DNA of 64,000 bases from Desulfobacter postgatei 2ac9. GTDB taxonomy: Bacteria; Desulfobacterota; Desulfobacteria; Desulfobacterales; Desulfobacteraceae. How positions within the stretch are numbered: position 1 is the first letter of the stretch; each line of letters starts with the position of its first letter. Location of the stretch: contig NZ_CM001488.1 of the NCBI RefSeq assembly GCF_000233695.2, positions 1,110,792 through 1,174,791 on the forward strand, given 5' to 3'. Under the pieces are notes generated by a model. That model worked only from the letters and a program-made list of their open reading frames with translations. It made no database searches and had not been told where the DNA came from. A program made the translations under genes and the position numbers. This document shows positions 46,765 to 58,133 of the stretch, piece after piece.

Positions 46765-47001
46765 TGTTGAGAATGTAGGCACTTGGGGTGCATGCAACTG
46801 ATTGCATGGACCTGTCGGCAGGGCGATTCTTTATTCATTAAAATTTTAAGTCTCGTGTTGCAGGAATTTTTCACAGCCTTTAAAAAGGTTCCTGTTACGG
46901 GGCGATGAAATTACGAGAAATTATACCAACAATGCCTTATTTTGTGATATGGGTAATTTCTATATTTAACTTCCATTGTTTTAATGAAAGGGATAGCGCC
47001 A

Positions 47002-48165
47002 ATGCAAATATTCAAAAAAATTCTTTATGCCGTTCTGTTCTTTTTGCTGCTCTCTTCTGTTTCGGTGATGGCTGCTGACAAGGGTAATTTCAGCGTAAAG
47101 CCAAGTACGAATGGTGGCAAAAAATGGCGGATCGGATATTTTGAGGGGGGAGAATACATTAATTATCAGCTCAATTTCCTGGGGATTGTCAGGGGATTGA
47201 TGGACATGGGGTGGATGGAAAATGCCAAGATCCCTGAGCAGTCCGGTGAGCAGACCGCGCAACTGTGGCAGTGGCTGGCAAACAACACCAAAAGCCGGTA
47301 TATTGAATTTGTCAAAGATGCGCATTACACGGGCAGCTGGGACACTCCGCGTATTGAGCAGATGGTGCCTAAAATTATTTCCCGTTTGAATAATAAAAAA
47401 GATATTGATTTGATTATCGCAGCCGGCACCAAGGCCGGCCTCAAATTTGCCAGCAATGACCATAAAGTGCCCACACTTGTTATTTCAACCACGGACCCGC
47501 TGGCTGCCGGCATCATTAAAAGTGTTGAAGATTCCGGTTTCGACCATGTCCATGCCCGGGTTGATCCCTATCGCCATGAACGTCAGATTCAGCTTTTTTA
47601 TGACATCATCGGCTTCAATAAACTTGGCATTGCCTACCAGGATACAGAGCAGGGACACAGTTACGCAGCACTGGAGAGTGTAAAAAAAGTGGCTGATGAG
47701 CGCGGGTTTAAAATTGTTTCCTGTTTTACCACAGATGAAAGCGCAGAGATCATAAAAGATGAGGAGAGTGTAAAAAAATGTTTTGCAACCTTAGGGGAAA
47801 GCGCTGACGCCATTTATGTCACCACCCAGAACGGTGTAAATGCCGACAGTATTCCCGAGCTTGTGAAAATAGCCAACAAATACCGGATACCCACCTTTAC
47901 CCAGTCCCATTCCGAGCAGGTAAAATATGGATTTTTAATGAGTATATCCAGGGCAAATTTTCAATATGTCGGGCGATTTTATGCCGAGACCATGGCCAAG
48001 ATATTCAACGGTGCTAAACCTAGAGATATAGGGCAGTTGTTTGAAGATCCCCCGAAAATCGCCATTAATCTAAAAACGGCTGAATTGATCGGTTATGATC
48101 CTCCTGTTGATGTTTTAAGCGCGGCCGATGAAATATTTGAGGACATTGAAATCCCTAAAAAATAG
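47002..48165 (+). CDS. ABC-type substrate-binding protein (PF04392 type)
   Basis: An exported binding protein of about 387 residues: signal peptide IFKKILYAVLFFLLLSSVSV with cleavage after MAA, then WRIGYFEGGEY, LIIAAGTKAGLKF, TTDPLAAGII and KLGIAYQDTEQG, the order seen in TrpX-like ABC substrate-binding proteins. No ABC permease or ATPase is adjacent, so it may act as a sensor partner or use a distant transporter. ATG 47002 is preferred over 46984 for its AGGGA spacing. Its 3' end overlaps the convergent unknown gene by 11 bases, hinting at a shared locus. Confidence 0.85.
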   Translation: MQIFKKILYAVLFFLLLSSVSVMAADKGNFSVKPSTNGGKKWRIGYFEGGEYINYQLNFLGIVRGLMDMGWMENAKIPEQSGEQTAQLWQWLANNTKSRYIEFVKDAHYTGSWDTPRIEQMVPKIISRLNNKKDIDLIIAAGTKAGLKFASNDHKVPTLVISTTDPLAAGIIKSVEDSGFDHVHARVDPYRHERQIQLFYDIIGFNKLGIAYQDTEQGHSYAALESVKKVADERGFKIVSCFTTDESAEIIKDEESVKKCFATLGESADAIYVTTQNGVNADSIPELVKIANKYRIPTFTQSHSEQVKYGFLMSISRANFQYVGRFYAETMAKIFNGAKPRDIGQLFEDPPKIAINLKTAELIGYDPPVDVLSAADEIFEDIEIPKK

Positions 48166-49735
48166 GGCAAGGCTTACATAACGCAACTTTTCCGGACAAT
48201 TCCCTGGAACATGCCTGTGCTACCCTATGCTGCCAGCCGGACTGCTGCCGGGTGATTTGAGCATCTGCATCTTTAAGTGAGCCAAAAAGGCCTGCTATAT
48301 GGGCCTGGGTAACCGTCAAACCAAAGGCCTTGGTCAGGTCGTCTCTGTTGATTCCCCCGGCTTGAATGATTTCAATGGGACCTGCCGGCAGCAGTTCATT
48401 GTTCTGTCCCGGGCTCATGAATGCCAGCATCCCGTCCTGGTAAAGGTTCGTGGTGATCTCTTTTATCATTTCCGCATTCGTGGTATCCCCCTGTACTTTA
48501 AGGCAGTCGGCAATGCAGGTTTTCATCCATGTCAAATATGCACCCTGGAACACGCCGCCCACACAATGAAATCCCCTGGCAAAACAAATGAGCAGAAAAC
48601 AGGTGAACAGGGAGGGCAGCAGTTTTTGTTTTTCAAGCGCCTGAATCAGTTCATTCCGGTTAAAGTTCATAGTAAAAGAATCGCCCCGGTCATCCCTTCC
48701 GCATAGATAAAAATCGCCTTTTATGGATTTTAATAAAAGGGGAACGCGGCGCTTATAATCATCAATGCCCCAGAAAAAAATCGTACCCGTCGCCGTGCTA
48801 TCCGGTTTTCCCGGAGCCGTATCTCTAGTCTTGAGGGTATTGGCATGCCAGCAGCCTGGGCAGCCGTCCAGATGTTGAATAATCGTGTTGCGCAGTGTTG
48901 CATTGAAAAAGATTCGGTATGCAAGGCTGTTTTCATCGTTCAGGTCTTTGCCGAGCAGAATGGCGGTGATTTTTTCAATTTCCAGATACACAATATCCGG
49001 CGGATGTTCACTGGTTTTCAGCATGCGTTTTCCAAGCATCCGGTTGACAATCATAGCCTGGGCCGCGTAGCTCTCCTGGTTTAAAACCGCATCAATGGCA
49101 TACTCATGTTCTAAAAGGCTTACAATTGTTTCGGCCGTGGTTTTGGATATCAGGTTTTTCTTTTTCCATGCGGTTGTTTTTTTCAGGGCTTTTTGCTGCA
49201 TGGCTATGGTAAACGGTTTTGCCAGGCTGGTCATGGTCCGCTTTTCATTGTCCGGAAATATCGGCAGTCTCAAGGGTAACTCCCGGCTGTTGCCCAATTC
49301 GGATTCGTATACCAGAAGTCCTCTGGCAAATGTCGAACTGTTAAGCGGCACATTGCCGAAACAAAAAATCGGGATGGTGGTTTCTTTGCGCCGGCCGGTG
49401 AGAATTCCTGCACCGTAAATCAGGTTCCCCTGGACCGAATTGGCAAAATAATCAATGCCAAGGTGTGTGGTGGTCATTACAGTACCCGCTGCCATCAGAT
49501 CATTGGCAGCGCGGGTCCCTATATCTTTTCCCAGAACAGGGCAAATCTGACCAAAAACAGCCTGCCTGATGTCATCCCTGGATTGGACGGATGGACAGGG
49601 TGGTGTGTTCAATCTTTCAGCATACACCCCAAGGGGCATATGACCAAACCTGTTAAGAATGTTTTTGACCACGGGAAGTTTTTGGCAGACCATTTCCAGA
49701 TATTCAGATGCACTGGATTGTGATTGTGTTGTCAT
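48155..49735 (-). CDS. Uncharacterised 526-residue protein in racemase/MFS operon
   Basis: I do not recognise this protein. It is soluble-looking, without signal peptide or clear membrane helices. Strongly motif-like parts are MTTTHLGIDYFANSVQGNL near residue 90, FGNVPLNSSTFARGLLVYE near 125, RIFFNATLRNTIIQHLDGC near 275 and FFWGIDDYKRRVPLLL near 315. The His/Asp in THLGIDYF and the Asn/Ser/Arg in the next motif could form an active site, suggesting an enzyme. Cys residues at LDGCPGCW and CFARGFHCVGG might bind metal. It is last in a tight operon (12 bases after the MFS gene), so it probably acts on the same compound as the racemase. Confidence 0.75.
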   Translation of the reverse strand: MTTQSQSSASEYLEMVCQKLPVVKNILNRFGHMPLGVYAERLNTPPCPSVQSRDDIRQAVFGQICPVLGKDIGTRAANDLMAAGTVMTTTHLGIDYFANSVQGNLIYGAGILTGRRKETTIPIFCFGNVPLNSSTFARGLLVYESELGNSRELPLRLPIFPDNEKRTMTSLAKPFTIAMQQKALKKTTAWKKKNLISKTTAETIVSLLEHEYAIDAVLNQESYAAQAMIVNRMLGKRMLKTSEHPPDIVYLEIEKITAILLGKDLNDENSLAYRIFFNATLRNTIIQHLDGCPGCWHANTLKTRDTAPGKPDSTATGTIFFWGIDDYKRRVPLLLKSIKGDFYLCGRDDRGDSFTMNFNRNELIQALEKQKLLPSLFTCFLLICFARGFHCVGGVFQGAYLTWMKTCIADCLKVQGDTTNAEMIKEITTNLYQDGMLAFMSPGQNNELLPAGPIEIIQAGGINRDDLTKAFGLTVTQAHIAGLFGSLKDADAQITRQQSGWQHRVAQACSRELSGKVALCKPCPIF

Positions 49736-49747
49736 GGATTTATCCGC

Positions 49748-52249
49748 CTAACCCACCAAAATAAAGATCAGGGTGAAAAGCAGGTAAGCTGCTGCTGTCA
49801 GGGCAATACCTGAATCTGATCCCATGGTGATAAAAAGCCATCCAAACAGGATGGGGCCGGTTACCTGACCTAATCGCAAAACAGCATTTAAAAGACCGAT
49901 AGCCTTACCGCCACCCAATTGGCTGGTGATGTGCAAATCCAATACATATGCGCTTCTGACTGGAATCAGGCAGGCGGAAAGACCTAGAAGAAAGATGGAA
50001 ACCGTAACGGAGACAACACCGGAAAAGTCTTTGAAAAAATAAAAATTGGCAATGCTCAGGCTGCCGATAAAACTGCCCATGACAAGGTATCGTTTTTTGT
50101 CGTGGGCCCTGCCTGCAATTTTTGAAATATACGGCGCCACATACATCAGGCAGATGCCGTAAATCATGAAAATCCGGCCGATGTCGGACTGGGAGGCACC
50201 AATGCTTTTCAGATAAATGGGGCTGTAATAGTTCATGAAACCGATCAGCACGATATACCAGGGAAGCCCATAAAATACGATCAGTGTGAAAATTTTACGA
50301 TTGAACAGGAAACTGAATAAAGACGGTTTCGCGGATGACGGAAGTATTTGCTCTGTCGGGGTCGCCTGCGCAGTTGGTTTTGGGGGTGCCATGGCACCGT
50401 TCATCATGAAAAAGGTATATATAATAAGCAGCAGCACAATAGTGCCGCCCACCAGAAAGACCGGGGCATAACCGATACGGTCCGCCAGCATCGCTCCTGT
50501 GGCTCCGCCGCAGATACTGCCTGCATATACTCCGGCCCACAGCTGGGCCATGCCCTGGGCACTGTTTTTTCTTGTGGTAAGTGCAATGATAAAACCTTGG
50601 GCCGCCATCAGGGAGAGCCCGTACCCCATCCCCACAAGGCCTAAAGCAATAAGAAAGTAGAGGGAAGATGGGGCCAGCCAGGCAAAGATAAATCCTGTGC
50701 CGGATAAAAACAGCCCAACCAGAAAGGGTTCTGCCCAACCTCGCTTGTCGCACCATCCACCTGATATCAGTAATGATATTGAAGTGAACAGCATTTGCAT
50801 GGAAATGGGAAGGCCCATAATGATCTCTTTGGAAAGGCCCAGTAATGGATGATTTGGGTTATACAAGGTGGCCATGTGAAGGGGAAGAAATGAAATGCAG
50901 GAGTCTACCCCGAAAAAAAATATGAACGCCACGGGTCGAATGGCTGTGTAATGCACCTGCTTGTTATGCGCACGGGTCTCTCCGGCGATCTGGCGTTCAA
51001 TAAGCTGGAGCTCAAGGATCAGCAGTTCCACAAAAAAGAAAATCGAGATCACAAGAACCGTGATCGAATCCAGGGCAATTTCTTTAAGTTTGTTGAACAG
51101 GAAATCCTTTGAAATATGGATGGTCAGTTTGCCGACCAATGTACCGGTTTGTGTTTTCCGTGTATTGAACAGGTTCTGGGTGACTGTGTAGCCCGGATAA
51201 TCATGGAGGGAAAGCATTTCGCCATCCTGATCTTCATTCTTTTCAGGCGTTGTCAGATTGCGCATGCCGTGCTTGGTGGCAATGTAAAGGGGCCGGCCCT
51301 TGTGATCAGATATGGTAATGCCTTCAAGTTCAGGAGATACGGCAATGAGATCAGCCAGCCGTTGGTCCATTTTTATCAGTCGCCGGATATTCAGGCCCTT
51401 TGCCAGTAAATATTCAATATCCTGTTTTAACAGCTTTGACATGACAACACTTTTCTGGGTGGAAACATCCAGAAAATGGACCCTGAATTCAAAAAGATTA
51501 AACAAGTTCAAGGAGATTTGGGCCAGGCAGATGATAATAAAAAAAGCCGCAGAGATTTTAAATTTGATTCGCCCCAGTGATTTTTCAGATATGTTCGGCC
51601 CCAGGGTCAAAGATCGCAGAAAGATGACTAAAAGCCCCATGGCAGTGAAAAGAATCACCGCAATCAGGTTTTTATTTTTCATGACTATGGCGCCCAACAG
51701 AGCCTTTACCTGTTCCTGACCGAAGGCAACCGTTACGGTGGCGACCCATTTTCTTGCCCCCCCCTCTTTTACGGGCAGGGAAAGGTAATAAACGCCTTCA
51801 TGTTTCACACAGTGGCATTCCACAGGGGTTTGTGCATCCTTGACCATCGGCAGGCGCACCGATTCAGGCAACGCTCTCCCCACAACCTGTGTTCTGCTGC
51901 TGTAAACAACATCTCCATCCGGGTCGGTAATATAAACAACAATGTCATCCTTATCAGTGCCGGGGTCACCTGCCTCTTTCTGTTTCGGTGTCAGGTGCTG
52001 CCGGGCTTCCAGGATTAGTTTGTCCATACCAATGAATTTATCAAAGCGTTTGCCGAATCGAAGCGCCGTTTCCAGGTTGCGCTGGAGGTCCTTTGCCACC
52101 ACGTTGTTTTTGGAAATAAAGGTTTCCACATACAGTTTTTCAAGGGTGGCTGATGTTAAAAGAATATTAAAGCCTAACGCGAGCACCAGCATGATAAAGG
52201 CACCTGCAAACAAGCGCATCCGGGATCTGTTTTTCGTCAAATGGCTCAT
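49748..52249 (-). CDS. MFS transporter fused to two extracytoplasmic sensor modules
   Basis: An 833-residue protein. Residues 1-30 are a membrane anchor, about 35-185 an extracytoplasmic Cache/PAS-like sensor (VVYITDPDGDVVYSSRTQVVG), then two helices (near 195 and 235), a second sensor-like loop (about 260-400; VSPELEGITISDHKGRPLYI), another helix near 415, and a 12-helix MFS carrier (about 445-833; GWCDKRGWAEPFLVGLF, KIAGRAHDKKRYLV). Sensor modules attached to MFS carriers are rare. The arrangement suggests transport gated by, or reporting on, an outside ligand. It overlaps the racemase gene by 4 bases. Confidence 0.85.
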   Translation of the reverse strand: MSHLTKNRSRMRLFAGAFIMLVLALGFNILLTSATLEKLYVETFISKNNVVAKDLQRNLETALRFGKRFDKFIGMDKLILEARQHLTPKQKEAGDPGTDKDDIVVYITDPDGDVVYSSRTQVVGRALPESVRLPMVKDAQTPVECHCVKHEGVYYLSLPVKEGGARKWVATVTVAFGQEQVKALLGAIVMKNKNLIAVILFTAMGLLVIFLRSLTLGPNISEKSLGRIKFKISAAFFIIICLAQISLNLFNLFEFRVHFLDVSTQKSVVMSKLLKQDIEYLLAKGLNIRRLIKMDQRLADLIAVSPELEGITISDHKGRPLYIATKHGMRNLTTPEKNEDQDGEMLSLHDYPGYTVTQNLFNTRKTQTGTLVGKLTIHISKDFLFNKLKEIALDSITVLVISIFFFVELLILELQLIERQIAGETRAHNKQVHYTAIRPVAFIFFFGVDSCISFLPLHMATLYNPNHPLLGLSKEIIMGLPISMQMLFTSISLLISGGWCDKRGWAEPFLVGLFLSGTGFIFAWLAPSSLYFLIALGLVGMGYGLSLMAAQGFIIALTTRKNSAQGMAQLWAGVYAGSICGGATGAMLADRIGYAPVFLVGGTIVLLLIIYTFFMMNGAMAPPKPTAQATPTEQILPSSAKPSLFSFLFNRKIFTLIVFYGLPWYIVLIGFMNYYSPIYLKSIGASQSDIGRIFMIYGICLMYVAPYISKIAGRAHDKKRYLVMGSFIGSLSIANFYFFKDFSGVVSVTVSIFLLGLSACLIPVRSAYVLDLHITSQLGGGKAIGLLNAVLRLGQVTGPILFGWLFITMGSDSGIALTAAAYLLFTLIFILVG

Positions 52250-53337
52250 AAAACAGGTGTGCTGTCAGTTTCTTCCTGGTAACGGATCCGGGTAAATGGC
52301 GATATAAAGCTTTGGAGAAAGGCCTGGTAGTTCATTGTGAAATCAACAAAATCTCCCACTTTAAAGCGATGAGGGCAATCCGTGATGTCTGCCAGGGTAT
52401 AATTGGAATTTACGGAAACAATTTCCATGCCCGGGATTAAAGGTGCCAATCCTGATGGGTAAGTGTCGCAGATGCCGAAATTGAGAATGGCGCGTTTGCG
52501 CAAGCCCCGGCGGGGAAACCGGGGTTGGCAGCCCAAAGCATCCTTTCCGCACAACTGGGGTGGCGTTACTCGCTTTTCTTTTATTTCAAGGATATCGCTT
52601 CTGAATGTGACCACCCGGGTATCCAGATTCGGGTGCACCTGATTTATTGTGGGAATAGTGCCCAGGAACACGGATTCTCCCAATCGTATATTGTTGATCC
52701 GGCCGGGAAGTCGCTTGTGCTGCATCCATTTGAGCAGTACGGAGCCGCCCACGGACACAGTGTTAACCTTAATGTCGAGTTTGGATTCAATCTGATCAGC
52801 CAGGTGGGCCATGATACCAAGGTTGTATTCATCCGGTACGGTTCCGGCACAACATCCCAGGTTGGTGCCGATGCCGGCAAATTTAATGCCCCGGGGCTTG
52901 ATCTGGTGAATTTTGCGCACGGTATCCAGAACCTGATCGGGCATAACACCTTCTCTCAAGTCTCCGGTATCCACCATCAAAAGAATGCTGTGGGGGCAGT
53001 TCATGGCAATGGCCGTTTGGTTGAGTTTTTGAATAACGGCCAGTTCAGAGTTGAAACTTGTGCCGAAGCACTGGACAATGGCAGGCAGTTGATGGATTGA
53101 GGGCAGGGCAATATATATGGGCCGCCTGGGGAAGACAGGTTTTGCTCTTGGACCGTCAGGCACCCTGGATATTCCGATGTTTTCAAAACCTAAGTCCAAC
53201 ATCTGACTGATCATCTTCTGGTCTGCACATGGGTCTTTGATAATTCCGGTGATCCCCAGGTGATGTTCCCTGCAGTACCGGGACAAAAAACGGATATTGT
53301 GACGCAGTCTGTCCAGATTCAGGAGTAATTGACTCAT
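52246..53337 (-). CDS. Ornithine-racemase-like PLP enzyme (alanine racemase fold type III)
   Basis: A 363-residue fold-type III PLP enzyme. The putative PLP Lys is in GITGIIKDPC near residue 33. MVDTGDLREGVMP, GIGTNLGCCAGTVP, VSVGGSVLLKWM and INNIRLGESVFLGT match ornithine racemase (Orr) and related amino-acid racemases in order. It likely interconverts an L- and D-amino acid; ornithine is the best guess from motif similarity, not proven. It lies 14 bases behind the phosphatase gene and overlaps the MFS gene. Confidence 0.82.
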   Translation of the reverse strand: MSQLLLNLDRLRHNIRFLSRYCREHHLGITGIIKDPCADQKMISQMLDLGFENIGISRVPDGPRAKPVFPRRPIYIALPSIHQLPAIVQCFGTSFNSELAVIQKLNQTAIAMNCPHSILLMVDTGDLREGVMPDQVLDTVRKIHQIKPRGIKFAGIGTNLGCCAGTVPDEYNLGIMAHLADQIESKLDIKVNTVSVGGSVLLKWMQHKRLPGRINNIRLGESVFLGTIPTINQVHPNLDTRVVTFRSDILEIKEKRVTPPQLCGKDALGCQPRFPRRGLRKRAILNFGICDTYPSGLAPLIPGMEIVSVNSNYTLADITDCPHRFKVGDFVDFTMNYQAFLQSFISPFTRIRYQEETDSTPVL

Positions 53338-53351
53338 AATGATGTTAAATT

Positions 53352-55370
53352 TTATTTCCGGAATTTGATTATCAGGATGGCAATATCATCGGACTGGGCC
53401 GCAGAATCGGCATGTTCCCGAATGCGGTCTAAAAGATTATGCGCTATTTTTTTCGACGGCAGATCCCTGTCTTTTGACACTTCATCAATCATCCGTTGAT
53501 TTGAAAATTGCTCCCCGTCTTTGTTCATGGCCTCGTTAACCCCATCCGTATATAACATAAAACCCTGTCCATTATTAAGGGTTAAGGTGCTGTCCGAATA
53601 AATGATGCCCGGCATGGCACCGACAGGGGGGTCTTTTTTTTCTTCTATAAAACGGGCCCCGTCATGGTTGATCATAATGGGCGGGCAGTGTCCGCCATTG
53701 GCATAGACAATCCGGCCTGTTTGAATATTCAAAATCCCGATGATAAGGGTAACAAACATGGAACGGGGATTGTCGGAGCTTAATACATTGTTGATACTGG
53801 TCATCATCCGGGCAGGTGATACATCCTTGCCGCTGAATACTCGGATAAGGGTCCGGCTGACCACCATGAACAGGGCTGCAGGCACACCTTTGTGGGAAAC
53901 ATCACCTAAAGTAAAAACAACATGCTCGTCATCAAGCCGGAAAAAATCATAAAGATCTCCACCGATTTCCTTGGCCGGCTCCAACGTGGCATACAGATCT
54001 ATATGATCAAATTCAAGCAGCCCCGGAAAGGTTTTCGGCACCATGCCCAACTGGATTTCCCTGGCAATCCCCAGTTCACTTTCAATCCGCTGTCTGTCTG
54101 AGGTGATGTTGATCAAATCCTGGATGTTTCGGCTTAGTTCGTGGCGCATAAGGATAAATGACGCAGCCAGGTCTCCCACCTCATCTTTGTGATTTTCAGC
54201 CAGGTCATCCACCGGCGTTGCCTTTTCCATGGGGGTGGTAAAATTGAGTTTTGGAATTTCTCTGGCATAGGATGACAGGCGTTGCAAGGGTGTAGCGATC
54301 CGGCTGACGACCAGAATAATGGCCACAAGACCGGCCATGAACATCATTACGATGATCAGGCTCTGCCGGATAACCAGACGCTGGGCCGGCAGTTTGATCT
54401 CCTGCAAAGGAATGATGACACTGATATACCATTTAAAGGGTTTGAAATAATAACAATAGGCGATCATTTTTTTTGCATTTTTATCGGGCATGTCAGGCAG
54501 ATAATGAAAGTGTGAAAATTCAGCAGATGCGTTTTGACGGATATCGTCATTTATCATATTACCGGTGATTCGATTGAGCCGGGTACCCATGGCCTGAGAC
54601 GCACTTGCCAACTGCGGAATCAGTGCGGCACCTGATTCATCAAAAATATAGACAAAGCCGCTGTCAGCGATTTTCAGACTTTGGGTATAATCTGTCAAAG
54701 AGAGGATGATCTGTTCTTTCTGTTTTTCCGCCAGGGCCTGGAGCTGGCTGATATCCACGGAGACGCCGATGGTTAGTGACCAGGGTGTAAATGGTTTGAA
54801 ATAGGCAAGCACCGATGCGTTTTCCTGGCTCTGGTCAAAGTTGAACGCAGCAAAGTCCCCTCTTGGGGTTAAGTGATCAAACTGCATGACCTGGGATAGG
54901 TTTCTGTGTTTGACATCCATTAATGATTTTAAAGAAAGGGCGGTTACCTGCGCATTGGACGATGCTATTATATTGGATTGTGCATCAATGATGTAATGCT
55001 CGACATTATCAAAAGGGGCTGTTTCAAGCCAGGAGAGTGCGTGTTTAAGTCCGTTTGTCTCCTGTGATTCACCCTTTGCGGCAAAGCCTTCAAATACCGA
55101 TGCGATAACCTCGGTCGTGTTCTTTAACTGGCTGCGTTTTAAAAGGGTCAGGGTCCGTTTTTCCTTCAAAAGGTTGCGGTAATCTGCTTCAATAATCAAA
55201 TCCAGGGCGTGCAGAATGTTCAACGCGGAATCCTGCTGGGCCGTCAGCATGGCGTTACCCACATCCCGGTGGGTGGAAAAGATGTTAACCAGGGTAGATA
55301 TCACCATGACCAAAATAACAGCAAATAAAATTTTCCCCTTAATGGTTGAGAACATTGCGGTTTTGATCAC
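53352..55370 (-). CDS. Membrane sensor SpoIIE-type (PP2C) phosphatase
   Basis: A 672-residue receptor phosphatase of the RsbU/SpoIIE class. It has a first membrane helix (ILFAVILVMVISTLVNIF), a large extracytoplasmic Cache-like sensor (about residues 30-335), a second helix (LIIVMMFMAGLVAIILVV), a HAMP region (ATPLQRLSSYAREIP) and the phosphatase. The metal-binding parts are GGDLYDFF, LGDVSHKGVPAALFM, YANGGHCPP, YTDGVNEAM and QSDDIAIL. Such enzymes dephosphorylate STAS anti-sigma antagonists; none is in the window. It is the first gene of the operon. Confidence 0.93.
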   Translation of the reverse strand: MIKTAMFSTIKGKILFAVILVMVISTLVNIFSTHRDVGNAMLTAQQDSALNILHALDLIIEADYRNLLKEKRTLTLLKRSQLKNTTEVIASVFEGFAAKGESQETNGLKHALSWLETAPFDNVEHYIIDAQSNIIASSNAQVTALSLKSLMDVKHRNLSQVMQFDHLTPRGDFAAFNFDQSQENASVLAYFKPFTPWSLTIGVSVDISQLQALAEKQKEQIILSLTDYTQSLKIADSGFVYIFDESGAALIPQLASASQAMGTRLNRITGNMINDDIRQNASAEFSHFHYLPDMPDKNAKKMIAYCYYFKPFKWYISVIIPLQEIKLPAQRLVIRQSLIIVMMFMAGLVAIILVVSRIATPLQRLSSYAREIPKLNFTTPMEKATPVDDLAENHKDEVGDLAASFILMRHELSRNIQDLINITSDRQRIESELGIAREIQLGMVPKTFPGLLEFDHIDLYATLEPAKEIGGDLYDFFRLDDEHVVFTLGDVSHKGVPAALFMVVSRTLIRVFSGKDVSPARMMTSINNVLSSDNPRSMFVTLIIGILNIQTGRIVYANGGHCPPIMINHDGARFIEEKKDPPVGAMPGIIYSDSTLTLNNGQGFMLYTDGVNEAMNKDGEQFSNQRMIDEVSKDRDLPSKKIAHNLLDRIREHADSAAQSDDIAILIIKFRK

Positions 55371-55627
55371 TCCTCATCTATACTAAACTGTTACGGCTGC
55401 CATCGTAAACAGAACTCAGGTTTTACATTCAACACGGTTAGCCTATACCACAGTCGGCCCGCAGGTCCATACAATTTTATAAAATCGTAAAGCGGCGTTG
55501 ATATTTTTATTTCTTCCGGCCCGGTTCTATTCGGGTATTGTATTGTTGCTGATATTTGTATACGCTGCACTCAGGTTTTTTGGCTTAGGAATTTGAAAAA
55601 AATGCCCTAAATGGCTGAGTTATAAAT

Positions 55628-57667
55628 ATGGGTCAACGGTTTTTATCGACAATTAAAGGTAAAATCATTGTTTATGTGACCCTGGTGATGGTTATCTCAA
55701 CCGCTGTCAATCTCTATTTCACCAACAGGGATGTGGGACAGGCCATGTTGGTGACCCAGGAAAAATCAGCCCGTAATATTTTGCACTCCTTTTATCTGGT
55801 AATTCGCGAGAATTATCATCAACTTCTGACTTCCAAGCGGGCAATGACCCTGACCAAGCGCAATCAACTCAAACAAAAAGCGCGAATGATTCAATCTGTT
55901 TTTACCGGTTTCTGTACCGCCGTTACTCCCGGGGATGATTCCCGGTCAGGGATTCAAAAGGCCCTTGCATGGATTAACAATATCCCCTTTGAAAACACCG
56001 ATTTTTACATTATGGATGAGGAGTTTAACCTGATTTCAAGCTCGAATAAAAAGATGCGCAAAGGGGCTTACAGAACCATTGAGGATATTAAAGACAGAAA
56101 AATTGCCGAAGTGATGCAGTTTGACAACTTGAACCACCACGGTGATTTTGCAATCTTCAACACGGTTGGAGAAAACGGCCGATCCGGTCACGTCCTGGCT
56201 TTTTTTCTGCCGTTTCCGCCCCGGAAATATACCATTGGGGTATCCGTGGACATCAGTGGCATTGAAGCTCAAGCCCAGGCAGAGAAGGAAAAATGTATCT
56301 CTTCCCTGAATGAATATGCCGGCCGACTGACTATCACTAAAAGCGGATTTGTTTGTATGGTTGGTGCAGATGATACAATCCTGATTCCGCCCCCTGATCT
56401 TGGTGAAAACACCACCAAAGACATTATCCGCTGTATTAAAGAAAAGACAGGTATCCAGCAGATCCGAACCACGGATATTGCAGATATTTCGGAAATCAGA
56501 TATGTTGCCCGGTCGGATAACGGCGGCAGCCGGACCATGATTATTTACAGCACCTATTTTAAACCGTTCAAGTGGTATACCGGTGTTGTTATTCCCCTCA
56601 ATGAGATCAATGCCGCTGCAAAACAACTGGTTGTACGGCAGAGCATTATTATCGGCCTGATGTGTATAGTCGGCATTATTGCCGTCTTTGTTCTGGTTTC
56701 CCGGATTTCAAAACCATTGACTCTTTTATCCCATTATGCAAGGCGGCTGCCCCGGCGGGATCTTTCCAAACCTTTGCCGGAAGATTCACCCATTGATGCA
56801 TTGATAAAAAAACATAAGGATGAAGTTGGTACCCTTGCCGCATCTTTTCTCCTCATGCGTCGGGAATTGAATAAGAATATTCAGAACCTTATTCAGAGTA
56901 CGACAGCCCGGCTCCGTATGGAAAGTGACTTGAATATCGCAAGGGAGATTCAGCTGGGTATGGTGCCCAAAACCTTTCCGTTTTTTGCTGATCATCCGGA
57001 ATTTGATTTGTATGCCATGCTTACGCCTGCAAAAGAAGTGGGCGGGGATCTATATGATTTTTTTCTTATTGATGAGGACCGTCTGTGCTTTACCCTGGGC
57101 GATGTGTCTGAAAAAGGGGTGCCCTCGGCATTGTTCATGGTGATCACCCGTACCCTGATTCGGACGTTGAGTGAAAAGATGGAATCCCCAGGTATCGTCA
57201 TGGAAGAAATAAATGAGATTTTAAGCGCTGACAATCCAAGATCCATGTTTGTCAGGCTTGTCATCGGTATTTTCAATTTTAGGACCGGTGAAATCCTTTA
57301 TGCCAATGGCGGGCATAACCCGCCTGTGGTCATGCCCTGCAACAGTGAATGCTATTTTAAAAAAGGGAATACTCAACCCGTAGTGGGGGCTCTTCCCGGC
57401 ATTTCATACACTGACATATCATTGCGCCTTGAACCCCAAGACAGTTTTTTTCTGTACACCGACGGTGTGAATGAAGCCATGGATGCCGATTCTAAACAGT
57501 TTTCCAGCGAACGCCAGCTGGCTGTCCTGGAATTTAATAAAGAAAATAGTGCGGAACAGGTGATCAATGCTGTGCTTGGCGCTGTCCGGAAACATGCCGG
57601 AAACGCTGTTCAGTCAGATGATATTGCTATGCTGATGATCAAATATCAGGGATCGGATTTCATTTAA
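55628..57667 (+). CDS. Membrane sensor SpoIIE-type (PP2C) phosphatase, paralog
   Basis: A 679-residue close paralog of the divergently transcribed phosphatase, with the same layout: helix (IIVYVTLVMVISTAVNLYF), Cache-like sensor, helix (SIIIGLMCIVGIIAVFVLV), HAMP, and the PP2C core (GGDLYDFFLIDED, LGDVSEKGVPSALFM, YANGGHNPP, YTDGVNEAMDAD, QSDDIAML). The sensor halves differ more than the catalytic halves, suggesting a duplication followed by ligand divergence. Its last 8 bases overlap the convergent DUF3124 gene. Confidence 0.93.
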   Translation: MGQRFLSTIKGKIIVYVTLVMVISTAVNLYFTNRDVGQAMLVTQEKSARNILHSFYLVIRENYHQLLTSKRAMTLTKRNQLKQKARMIQSVFTGFCTAVTPGDDSRSGIQKALAWINNIPFENTDFYIMDEEFNLISSSNKKMRKGAYRTIEDIKDRKIAEVMQFDNLNHHGDFAIFNTVGENGRSGHVLAFFLPFPPRKYTIGVSVDISGIEAQAQAEKEKCISSLNEYAGRLTITKSGFVCMVGADDTILIPPPDLGENTTKDIIRCIKEKTGIQQIRTTDIADISEIRYVARSDNGGSRTMIIYSTYFKPFKWYTGVVIPLNEINAAAKQLVVRQSIIIGLMCIVGIIAVFVLVSRISKPLTLLSHYARRLPRRDLSKPLPEDSPIDALIKKHKDEVGTLAASFLLMRRELNKNIQNLIQSTTARLRMESDLNIAREIQLGMVPKTFPFFADHPEFDLYAMLTPAKEVGGDLYDFFLIDEDRLCFTLGDVSEKGVPSALFMVITRTLIRTLSEKMESPGIVMEEINEILSADNPRSMFVRLVIGIFNFRTGEILYANGGHNPPVVMPCNSECYFKKGNTQPVVGALPGISYTDISLRLEPQDSFFLYTDGVNEAMDADSKQFSSERQLAVLEFNKENSAEQVINAVLGAVRKHAGNAVQSDDIAMLMIKYQGSDFI

Positions 57668-58133
57668 AAGGGATAAGAATCTGGCCCCGGGACGTGAAAG
57701 AAGACCTTGAGCCGATCATGATGGTTTCCATGATCGGGGGATTTACTGGCTTTTCAGATCGCCATTCAACAATAAAATTGGCCCCGGCCCCTCCGGCCTT
57801 ATCGTCATAATCGACAACATAGCGTATGGATTCAAGGGGCTTTAGAGAAATAGGTGAGGGGAGGTATTTTTTTAAAAGAGTGCCTTTGGTGTTGTAGTAA
57901 TCTACCGACACAACCTCAATGCCATGAGACATGTCCGTATTGCGGATGCTTAAAGTCACGGTTAAAAACGTGGGGATCTGTCTGTTGCCTGTGTAAATAT
58001 GTGAATATGCCGGGACATAAACCTTTTGTCCCTTTGAAAGATTCGGGGCTTGCTGAGCAAAAGCCGTACCCCTTACACATAATAACAGGCCAATCAACAA
58101 AATCGGATAACCCAGTATATATTTTTTTACCAT
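57660..58133 (-). CDS. DUF3124 family exported protein
   Basis: A 157-residue protein with a signal peptide (YILGYPILLIGLLLCVRGTA, cleavage after AFA). The DUF3124 pattern is clear: KVYVPAYSHIYTG, TVTLSIRNTDMSHGI, VDYYNTKGTLLKKYL and GGAGANFIVEW. Function is unknown; the domain is beta-rich and probably sits in the periplasm or on a membrane. It converges with the sensor phosphatase gene. Confidence 0.9.
   Translation of the reverse strand: MVKKYILGYPILLIGLLLCVRGTAFAQQAPNLSKGQKVYVPAYSHIYTGNRQIPTFLTVTLSIRNTDMSHGIEVVSVDYYNTKGTLLKKYLPSPISLKPLESIRYVVDYDDKAGGAGANFIVEWRSEKPVNPPIMETIMIGSRSSFTSRGQILIPFK

Follow-up and report, generated by a model that had tools for sequence, protein, structure and literature searches.

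A recurring gene set built around U526, an unnamed protein family, in sulfate reducers and their relatives: a possible system to make, export and sense an amino-acid-derived molecule

What could a sensor phosphatase, an amino-acid racemase, a membrane carrier and a protein of no named family be doing together in one operon? The question is raised by a stretch of 64,000 nucleotides (the window) from Desulfobacter postgatei 2ac9 (contig NZ_CM001488.1, positions 1,110,792 to 1,174,791), whose genome is a single contig of 3.97 Mb. Four packed minus-strand genes of the window encode a phosphatase (PP2C_A), a racemase (RAC), a major facilitator superfamily carrier with two outer modules (sensor-MFS) and a 526-residue protein (U526), and a gene for a binding protein (SBP) converges on them. 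An earlier reading made from the sequence only suggested that the operon may make, move and sense a D-amino acid or a derivative of one, and it named a search for the gene order in other genomes as a check. That search found co-occurrence, beyond the genus as well: a Cache sensor, a racemase or epimerase, a sensor-MFS, U526 and an SBP recur together.

The recurrence was assessed in 57 fetched stretches (L033-L054 and L105-L139; L numbers are used here for fetched loci and G numbers for genomes), which were searched with profiles of six seed proteins. U526 was found in 56 of these, L139 being the exception, and the window brings the number of U526 loci to 57, near-duplicates included. A sensor-MFS is present at 51 of them, an SBP at 50, a Cache sensor at 37 and RAC at 25; ten have a DapF-type epimerase without RAC, and 22 have neither enzyme. 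In all 50 fetched loci with a sensor-MFS profile match, this gene lies on the same strand as U526, and the two open frames overlap or are at most 25 bases apart in 49, the exception being L138 (1302 bases). Gene order is kept in eight of eight further fetched operons of the same genus (L045, L046, L048-L052 and L054); beyond the genus it is rearranged or split. Within the genus, the 10 of 19 genomes that have an orthologue of U526 (at least 72% identical) are also those that have one of RAC (at least 80%), a pattern that reflects conservation of the operon, since it is mostly one linked operon.

What we regard as the strongest evidence that these genes work together comes from genomes in which the set has been divided. 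In two genomes, G605 and G589, the MFS-U526 pair is all of the set that shows up in the 20 kb fetched for this locus (L115 and L112, respectively), and RAC lies elsewhere (L194 and L195), flanked on the same strand by PP2C-type and SBP genes; for L194, the Cache and SpoIIE domains of the PP2C-type gene were confirmed. At L196 and L197, from genomes that have a weaker RAC match and no U526, neither RAC partner was found within 18 kb. A related arrangement can be seen at L038, L041, L043 and L044, where PP2C-RAC-SBP and MFS-U526 form two opposed units.

Counting the window's own genome, homologues of U526 were found in 4 of 297 genomes of the phylum by a single-sequence search, in 19 of 86 genomes of the family (two of them marginal, E ~8e-4), and by profile search in 16 of 291 genomes of the order and 28 of 247 genomes in the class of G235. 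One of these 28, G412, is marginal (E 4e-4), and its fetched stretch has no U526 match in the seed-profile search. We take this class to be Desulfovibrionia because the U526 of Nitratidesulfovibrio vulgaris nests among its sequences. The closest named relative that was found is a Desulfobacter metagenome-assembled genome (87% identity over the C-terminal part of U526). The family occurs in three phyla, namely that of the window and those represented by Streptomyces and Rhizobium plasmids; phage records gave no match. The window's genome has a second, 33% identical U526 (L035:7997-10797, at about 1453-1456 kb), whose open frame is 66 bases from that of a DapF-type gene; the profiles of the sensor-MFS, SBP and Cache sensor were unmatched in the 17 kb fetched around it.

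In the class of G235, RAC matches at E <= 1e-10 were found in 27 of 247 genomes, and the list of matches has a gap between 1.5e-30 and 1.8e-18. U526 is present in all 13 genomes above this gap (E <= 1e-30) and in one of the 14 below it (G609).

In the window, the operon reads PP2C_A, RAC, sensor-MFS and U526 from its start, with gaps of 14, -4 and 12 bases, as the sequence-only reading had described, and the convergent SBP and U526 genes overlap by 11 bases (Table 1). Its family assignments for three genes agree with Pfam (SpoIIE, dCache_2 and HAMP; Ala_racemase_N; MFS_1), and hydropathy is consistent with the two extracytoplasmic modules it gave the carrier, which are placed between transmembrane segments ahead of the MFS part. 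One point of it needs correcting. The divergent paralogous phosphatase, PP2C_B, is present but is no conserved partner, as it lies beside the operon in none of the eight other same-genus loci, and the binding protein does converge on the operon but is no orphan, given that an SBP is found at 50 of the 57 U526 loci. Scans of the intergenic region for promoters returned sigma-54-like and sigma-70-like sites no more often than shuffled sequence did. A gene for a DUF3124 protein (window 57660-58133) flanks the system here and in all eight other same-genus loci.

Table 1. Features of the U526 locus in the window (positions counted from the first letter of the window).
Feature	Description	Position	Strand	Basis or remark
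SBP	presumably exported binding protein (ABC_sub_bind, TrpX-like)	46984..48165	+	convergent with U526
U526	putative biosynthetic enzyme; soluble, family unnamed	48155..49735	-	family and fold searches without match
sensor-MFS	two outer modules followed by MFS carrier	49748..52249	-	Pfam, hydropathy
RAC	Orr-like pyridoxal phosphate (fold type III) amino-acid racemase	52246..53337	-	Pfam, NCBIfam
PP2C_A	membrane sensor phosphatase, TM-dCache_2-TM-HAMP-SpoIIE/PP2C (TM, transmembrane segment)	53352..55370	-	Pfam
Intergenic region	257 bases separating PP2C_A and PP2C_B; presumed operon promoter	55371..55627	.	sequence read
PP2C_B	diverging paralogue of PP2C_A; membership uncertain	55628..57667	+	SpoIIE and dCache_2

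What kind of protein is U526? The sequence-only reading could not place it and named profile and structure searches as a way to check; these gave no known family. The window's protein has no match above cut-off in Pfam and, at the limits used, none in NCBIfam, PHROGs, PADLOC or the sequences of the PDB, and a 21-row family alignment gave isolated weak matches only when compared with Pfam, NCBIfam and the PDB. A 4HBT assignment was considered and dropped: the window's protein matches at E 0.035 (14.8 bits, cut-off 20.6) over only 36 residues, and a match was found in 2 of the 21 members, the best at E 0.0013. A role in anti-phage defence was likewise set aside, the four operon proteins having no PADLOC match. 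Ten residues (G139, Q226, N231, D264, G317, W322, P374, G393, G394 and Y400) are invariant in all 49 aligned members. The motifs pointed out by the sequence-only reading contain H91 (44/49), G93 (43/49), D95 (36/49, with E in 10 more), R138 (41/49) and the invariant G139. In the U526 proteins of L043:9674-11143 and L044:1744-3213, a small segment surrounding C295-W296, a pair that hardly varies elsewhere, is missing. Hydropathy shows no hydrophobic N-terminus in U526.

An AlphaFold2 model of the window's U526, built from the family alignment, has a predicted local distance difference test score (pLDDT) of 94.4 and a predicted TM-score (pTM) of 0.93, and a second model, of the 25% identical member at L036, has values of 92.7 and 0.93. 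At E <= 0.001, Foldseek matched neither model to its copy of the PDB, nor the first model to BFVD, and it is within these searches that the fold resembles no known one. U526 is thus an unnamed family with a confidently predicted fold for which Foldseek finds no match in the PDB. The best Foldseek match of the L036 model is the class I lysyl-tRNA synthetase LysRS 1irx (E 0.53, TM 0.35), which, together with an H-x-G motif that follows strand one, prompted the idea of an amino-acid-activating enzyme resembling class I aminoacyl-tRNA synthetases. Kinship with the synthetases is not claimed because hhalign did no better against them (probability 0.11-0.16 against LysRS, TyrRS and CysRS-like profiles, the LysRS profile having three sequences) than against unrelated families (0.09-0.83); controls comparing synthetases with each other gave 39-63.

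The enzymes found with U526 both point to amino-acid stereochemistry. RAC carries a fold-III racemase domain dependent on pyridoxal phosphate (Pfam Ala_racemase_N, PF01168, 55.2 bits, cut-off 24.1) and belongs to the same racemase family as the ornithine racemase Orr (NF040742), which it matches over nearly the whole model. It differs from Orr in scoring 257.8 bits, below the curated cut-off of 480, and in its setting within an operon for sensing and transport; the RAC member at L036 scores 109.2 bits. K34, R218 and Y313 are identical in all 25 aligned members, and K34 is by analogy the probable lysine that binds the cofactor. RAC also shows no hydrophobic N-terminus in hydropathy plots. The DapF-type epimerases keep both catalytic cysteines (CGNG, ACGTG) in ten of ten cases, and nine of the ten have Glu in place of the Asn of solved DapFs. 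One of them, the L035 protein, was checked against the TIGR00652 equivalog and falls below its cut-off (93.7 bits, cut-off 114.65). That this unrelated epimerase takes the place of the racemase at 10 of the 57 loci strengthens the connection with amino-acid stereochemistry. On a U526 tree, the labels RAC, DapF and none do cluster, yet they require seven changes where the minimum possible is two. That the DapF-type enzyme is a histidine racemase was considered and dropped, as the key residues cannot be mapped with certainty from the published descriptions as far as these were available, and no substrate is claimed. At L135:3834-7475, one open frame of 1214 codons, possibly a natural fusion, holds both the epimerase and the sensor-MFS. 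L042, which has neither RAC nor a DapF-type gene, has an open reading frame resembling a class-III aminotransferase between its PP2C and SBP genes and one resembling an L-Ala-D/L-Glu epimerase nearby.

On the transport side, the sensor-MFS matches MFS_1 with 97.9 bits, and its outer modules (residues ~38-190 and 256-390) are each flanked by transmembrane segments according to hydropathy; a sCache_3_2 match is below cut-off (19.4 bits, cut-off 28.4), and the MdtG efflux model is matched weakly (31.8 bits, cut-off 571). SBP has an N-terminal hydrophobic segment and belongs to ABC_sub_bind (PF04392, 81.3 bits), with relatives of solved structure in 6hni, 3lkv and 3lft. It shares this broad family with the binding protein of TrpXYZ (NF041285) but, at 73 bits against the TrpX model, is well under the cut-off of 390. 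It further differs from TrpXYZ in that Pfam identified no ABC permease or ATPase gene in the neighbours tested from the window, those of other loci not having been searched for these genes, and that no ABC transporter was recognised as a constant neighbour. Open reading frames that look like peptide-type ABC importers, as judged by appearance without a library search, lie near L042, L107, L108 and L111, and those at L042:5079-10576 and L107:1705-6819 are of two distant lineages. At L037:104-2422, a partial SBP-like protein and a sensor-MFS share one open frame, which may be a natural fusion or an artefact of assembly.

The sensors can be of two kinds. PP2C_A scores 155.6 bits for SpoIIE, 66.8 for dCache_2 and 30 for HAMP, and GGDLYDFF, GDVSHKG, TDGVNEA and SDD, which we take to be PP2C motifs, are legible in its sequence; against the model of the biofilm phosphatase SiaA (NF038263) it reaches 73.3 bits, far below the cut-off of 700. 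PP2C_B has the same dCache_2-HAMP-SpoIIE layout. At L047, L053, L129, L134 and L135, the DapF-type loci with a linked Cache sensor, this sensor is a histidine kinase in all five cases and never a PP2C. Genes for STAS proteins and RsbW-like HATPases (HATPase_c_2) are found upstream of PP2C_A in five of the eight fetched same-genus loci (L046, L048, L049, L052 and L054) and after the PP2C gene at L126; none was seen beside the window's operon, where PP2C_B takes that place. One component of partner switching of the BtrUVW or Rsb type, a PP2C phosphatase with a SpoIIE domain, is present in the window according to Pfam.

Type III secretion system (T3SS) genes provide a further association. Export (Sct) genes adjoin 16 of the 57 U526 loci (L036, L042, L106-L111, L113, L114, L116, L117, L120, L122, L123 and L126). 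Apart from L042, all of these belong to the 25 loci that came from the class of G235 (L036, L105-L127 and L138), of which 15 are thus T3SS-linked. Ten of ten SctU and SctV proteins tested, from nine loci, score above the T3SS cut-offs of TIGR01404 and TIGR01399 and below those for flagellar FlhB and FlhA. In 14 of the 16 loci, the export genes are separated from the PP2C gene by one for a sigma-54 activator, and L126 has the PP2C, STAS, HATPase, sigma-54 activator and T3SS genes all inside 16 kb. A plasmid of N. vulgaris DP4 carries the SBP-MFS-U526 set together with a gene annotated as a T3SS chaperone. It is possible that this adjacency reflects a pathway that triggers type III secretion. 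A T3SS was also considered for the window's own genome, where SctV, the only T3SS gene searched there, gave a single match of 636.9 bits (cut-off 692). Type III secretion would be one output of the system and not its core function, because the window's genome has no SctV match above cut-off.

Two known systems are close to this part of the picture. In the BtrU, BtrV and BtrW system of Bordetella (PMC8256260), genes for a PP2C phosphatase, a STAS protein and a HATPase are tied to a T3SS, as they are at L126. The present phosphatase differs from theirs in being a membrane sensor accompanied by a sensor-MFS, U526, SBP and often a racemase, and the window's genome differs in that its one SctV-model match is below the T3SS cut-off. 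On pDV1 of strain Hildenborough, T3SS operons are reported to be under the activator DVUA0100 (PMC4641369), and this Desulfovibrio vulgaris regulon resembles the T3SS-linked loci in having a sigma-54 activator by T3SS genes. Genes for U526, an MFS, an SBP or a racemase go unmentioned in the relevant passages of that paper, and its main text has no occurrence of 'phosphatase' or 'PP2C'.

U526 is also found in quite different surroundings. Plasmid records with U526 include six from Streptomyces and three from Nitratidesulfovibrio, and the Streptomyces protein used as a query added eight Rhizobium plasmid records, aligned over 17-18% of its length. For Rhizobium etli, hhalign gave a probability of 98.2 over 406 aligned columns. 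In the two Streptomyces plasmid regions that were read, U526 follows an MFS gene in a cluster that resembles those for natural products, with a TauD oxygenase, a DapF-like enzyme, a cupin, a methyltransferase, an enzyme of the Orn/DAP/Arg-decarboxylase fold, a short-chain dehydrogenase/reductase, an amidinotransferase, a zinc-type dehydrogenase, an ATP-grasp protein whose C-terminus is of the L-amino-acid-ligase type, and a FemAB-like protein (identities from annotation, and from Pfam for seven of the listed genes and the MFS gene in the first region). The cluster at L033:4033-17795 sits on a linear Streptomyces plasmid, and its FemAB-like gene comes after U526. In R. etli, an MFS gene likewise lies immediately before U526 and the remaining genes differ; in Rhizobium sp. 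B230/85, no MFS gene is annotated next to U526. The MFS neighbours in Streptomyces and R. etli match MFS_3, a family containing exporters. On the Rhizobium plasmids, which are conjugative, these distant U526 genes (L191:7691-12579 and L192:10097-12579) are near genes annotated as S-adenosylmethionine methyltransferases, which are 44% identical to each other and have no Pfam match.

What, then, could the gene set do? The reading that we prefer, tentatively and somewhat short of calling it probable, is a system to make, export and sense a small extracellular molecule derived from an amino acid, most likely a signal resembling an autoinducer. We infer each biochemical step of this loop. The racemase or epimerase would invert the centre of an amino acid, and U526, as a cytoplasmic enzyme, would convert the inverted amino acid into the final molecule. 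The MFS carrier would export it and might gauge its outside level through its own outer modules. Autoinducers can be received by a periplasmic binding protein and a membrane sensor, as in LuxP and LuxQ, and SBP may serve as a periplasmic receptor in the manner of LuxP for LuxQ. The likeness would be one of architecture, with a Cache PP2C or histidine kinase as the sensor, unlike LuxQ, and with U526 and the racemase as the presumptive synthase. The ligand, or SBP with its ligand, would switch the Cache-PP2C or Cache-kinase, and the output on gene expression may run through STAS/HATPase partner switching (PP2C) or a phosphorelay (kinase), the T3SS included where present.

Several observations weigh against this reading. 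With the RAC limit at 1e-10, U526 is present in 14 of 27 RAC genomes of the class of G235, the 1e-30 cut having been picked after the gap in the list was seen, and the hypergeometric p values for co-occurrence (2.5e-14 and 1.1e-5) ignore shared ancestry. Scores of 254 and 262 bits with the RAC profile are still reached by two RAC relatives whose genomes lack U526. Seen from the other side, a close RAC is missing from 15 of the 28 U526 genomes in that class, and at 22 of the 57 loci neither RAC nor a DapF-type enzyme is linked to U526; among these 22, L112 and L115 have an unlinked RAC, and L039, L121 and L133 are near contig ends. A clade of eight (L034, L106, L110, L113, L114, L116, L124 and L127), five of them linked to T3SS genes, has neither enzyme. 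The sensor-MFS, SBP and Cache sensor are all missing at L033 (Streptomyces, where the MFS is an ordinary one), L035, L128, L133 and L137. Finally, small carboxylates are frequent ligands of dCache_2 and sCache domains, so the ligand of the phosphatase is not necessarily the product of the operon.

Scavenging can be considered as an alternative, in which SBP and the Cache sensor pick up a (D-)amino acid or peptide from the surroundings, the MFS carrier imports it, RAC and U526 convert it for catabolism and the phosphatase tunes expression. Racemases supply catabolism in many bacteria, the tryptophan-binding TrpX is among the ABC_sub_bind relatives of SBP, and the importer-like frames near L042 and L107, L108 and L111 would suit uptake. 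We consider this reading unlikely, however, as U526 is found in the Streptomyces cluster, its MFS neighbours there and in R. etli match the exporter-containing MFS_3, T3SS linkage fits signalling better, and no constant degradative enzyme turned up when the six seed families were counted and other open reading frames were roughly clustered.

The Streptomyces cluster would suit a secreted natural product or metallophore that regulates itself, where the epimerase and U526 make a chelator or antibiotic for export by the MFS carrier, and the sensors monitor how much of it is present. Staphylopine systems, which have CntE as their MFS exporter, offer a similar layout. These Cnt systems (PMC7438024 and PMC11602996) bring together a DapF-fold racemase, the histidine racemase CntK (PMC11602996), an MFS carrier and a binding protein, as the DapF-type loci do. 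This alternative is improbable in our view. Neither an opine dehydrogenase nor a nicotianamine synthase, and no counterpart of CntM or CntL, was matched among the operon proteins and Pfam-tested neighbours (a genome-wide search was not made). SBP is of the ABC_sub_bind family, whereas the zincophore binding proteins named in PMC7438024 are dipeptide/oligopeptide and FecCD types, and the phosphatase or kinase sensors and U526 come in addition to what Cnt systems hold. Metal supply would also leave the linkage to the T3SS and to Cache-PP2C proteins unexplained.

It is quite unlikely that U526 takes no part in making the product and instead serves the MFS carrier as its own cytoplasmic partner or regulator, for example as a loading or gating subunit. 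The near-constant pairing of the two genes on one strand speaks for this role, as does R. etli, where the MFS gene directly precedes U526 although the other genes differ. However, U526 occurs without a sensor-MFS match at L035, L128, L131 and L137 (an ordinary MFS could escape the profile), L035 retains an epimerase, and Rhizobium sp. B230/85 has no annotated MFS beside U526. Least likely of all, and very improbable, is a role in envelope remodelling, where D-amino acids would be produced and set free to modify the peptidoglycan near secretion machines while the sensors track the state of the cell wall: D-amino acids edit peptidoglycan in other bacteria, and the FemAB-like gene after U526 in Streptomyces and the T3SS adjacency would fit, but at 41 of the 57 loci the stretch that was fetched showed no T3SS export genes, and the survey described above turned up no constant cell-wall enzyme.

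No account of this gene set was found in the titles, abstracts and passages of the open-licence PMC literature, a scope that does not include subscription papers and preprints. A bolder form of the preferred make-export-sense reading, possible but doubtful, is that it represents a new class of signalling, with a stereochemically edited autoinducer derived from an amino acid, a U526 enzyme of new fold, an exporter with outer sensor modules of its own, a readout through SBP and a Cache phosphatase or kinase, and control of the T3SS and further outputs in sulfate reducers; the Streptomyces and Rhizobium cassettes would then make cognate molecules. To our knowledge, the cell-to-cell signals of sulfate-reducing bacteria are poorly known, and we know of no triggers of the type III secretion genes of Desulfovibrio. 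If the preferred reading is true, these bacteria would have a complete and testable system for extracellular signalling or for a secreted metabolite, tied to T3SS genes. Regardless of which reading holds, the chemistry of U526 can be approached directly through its predicted fold and through guilt by association with amino-acid epimerases and an MFS carrier.

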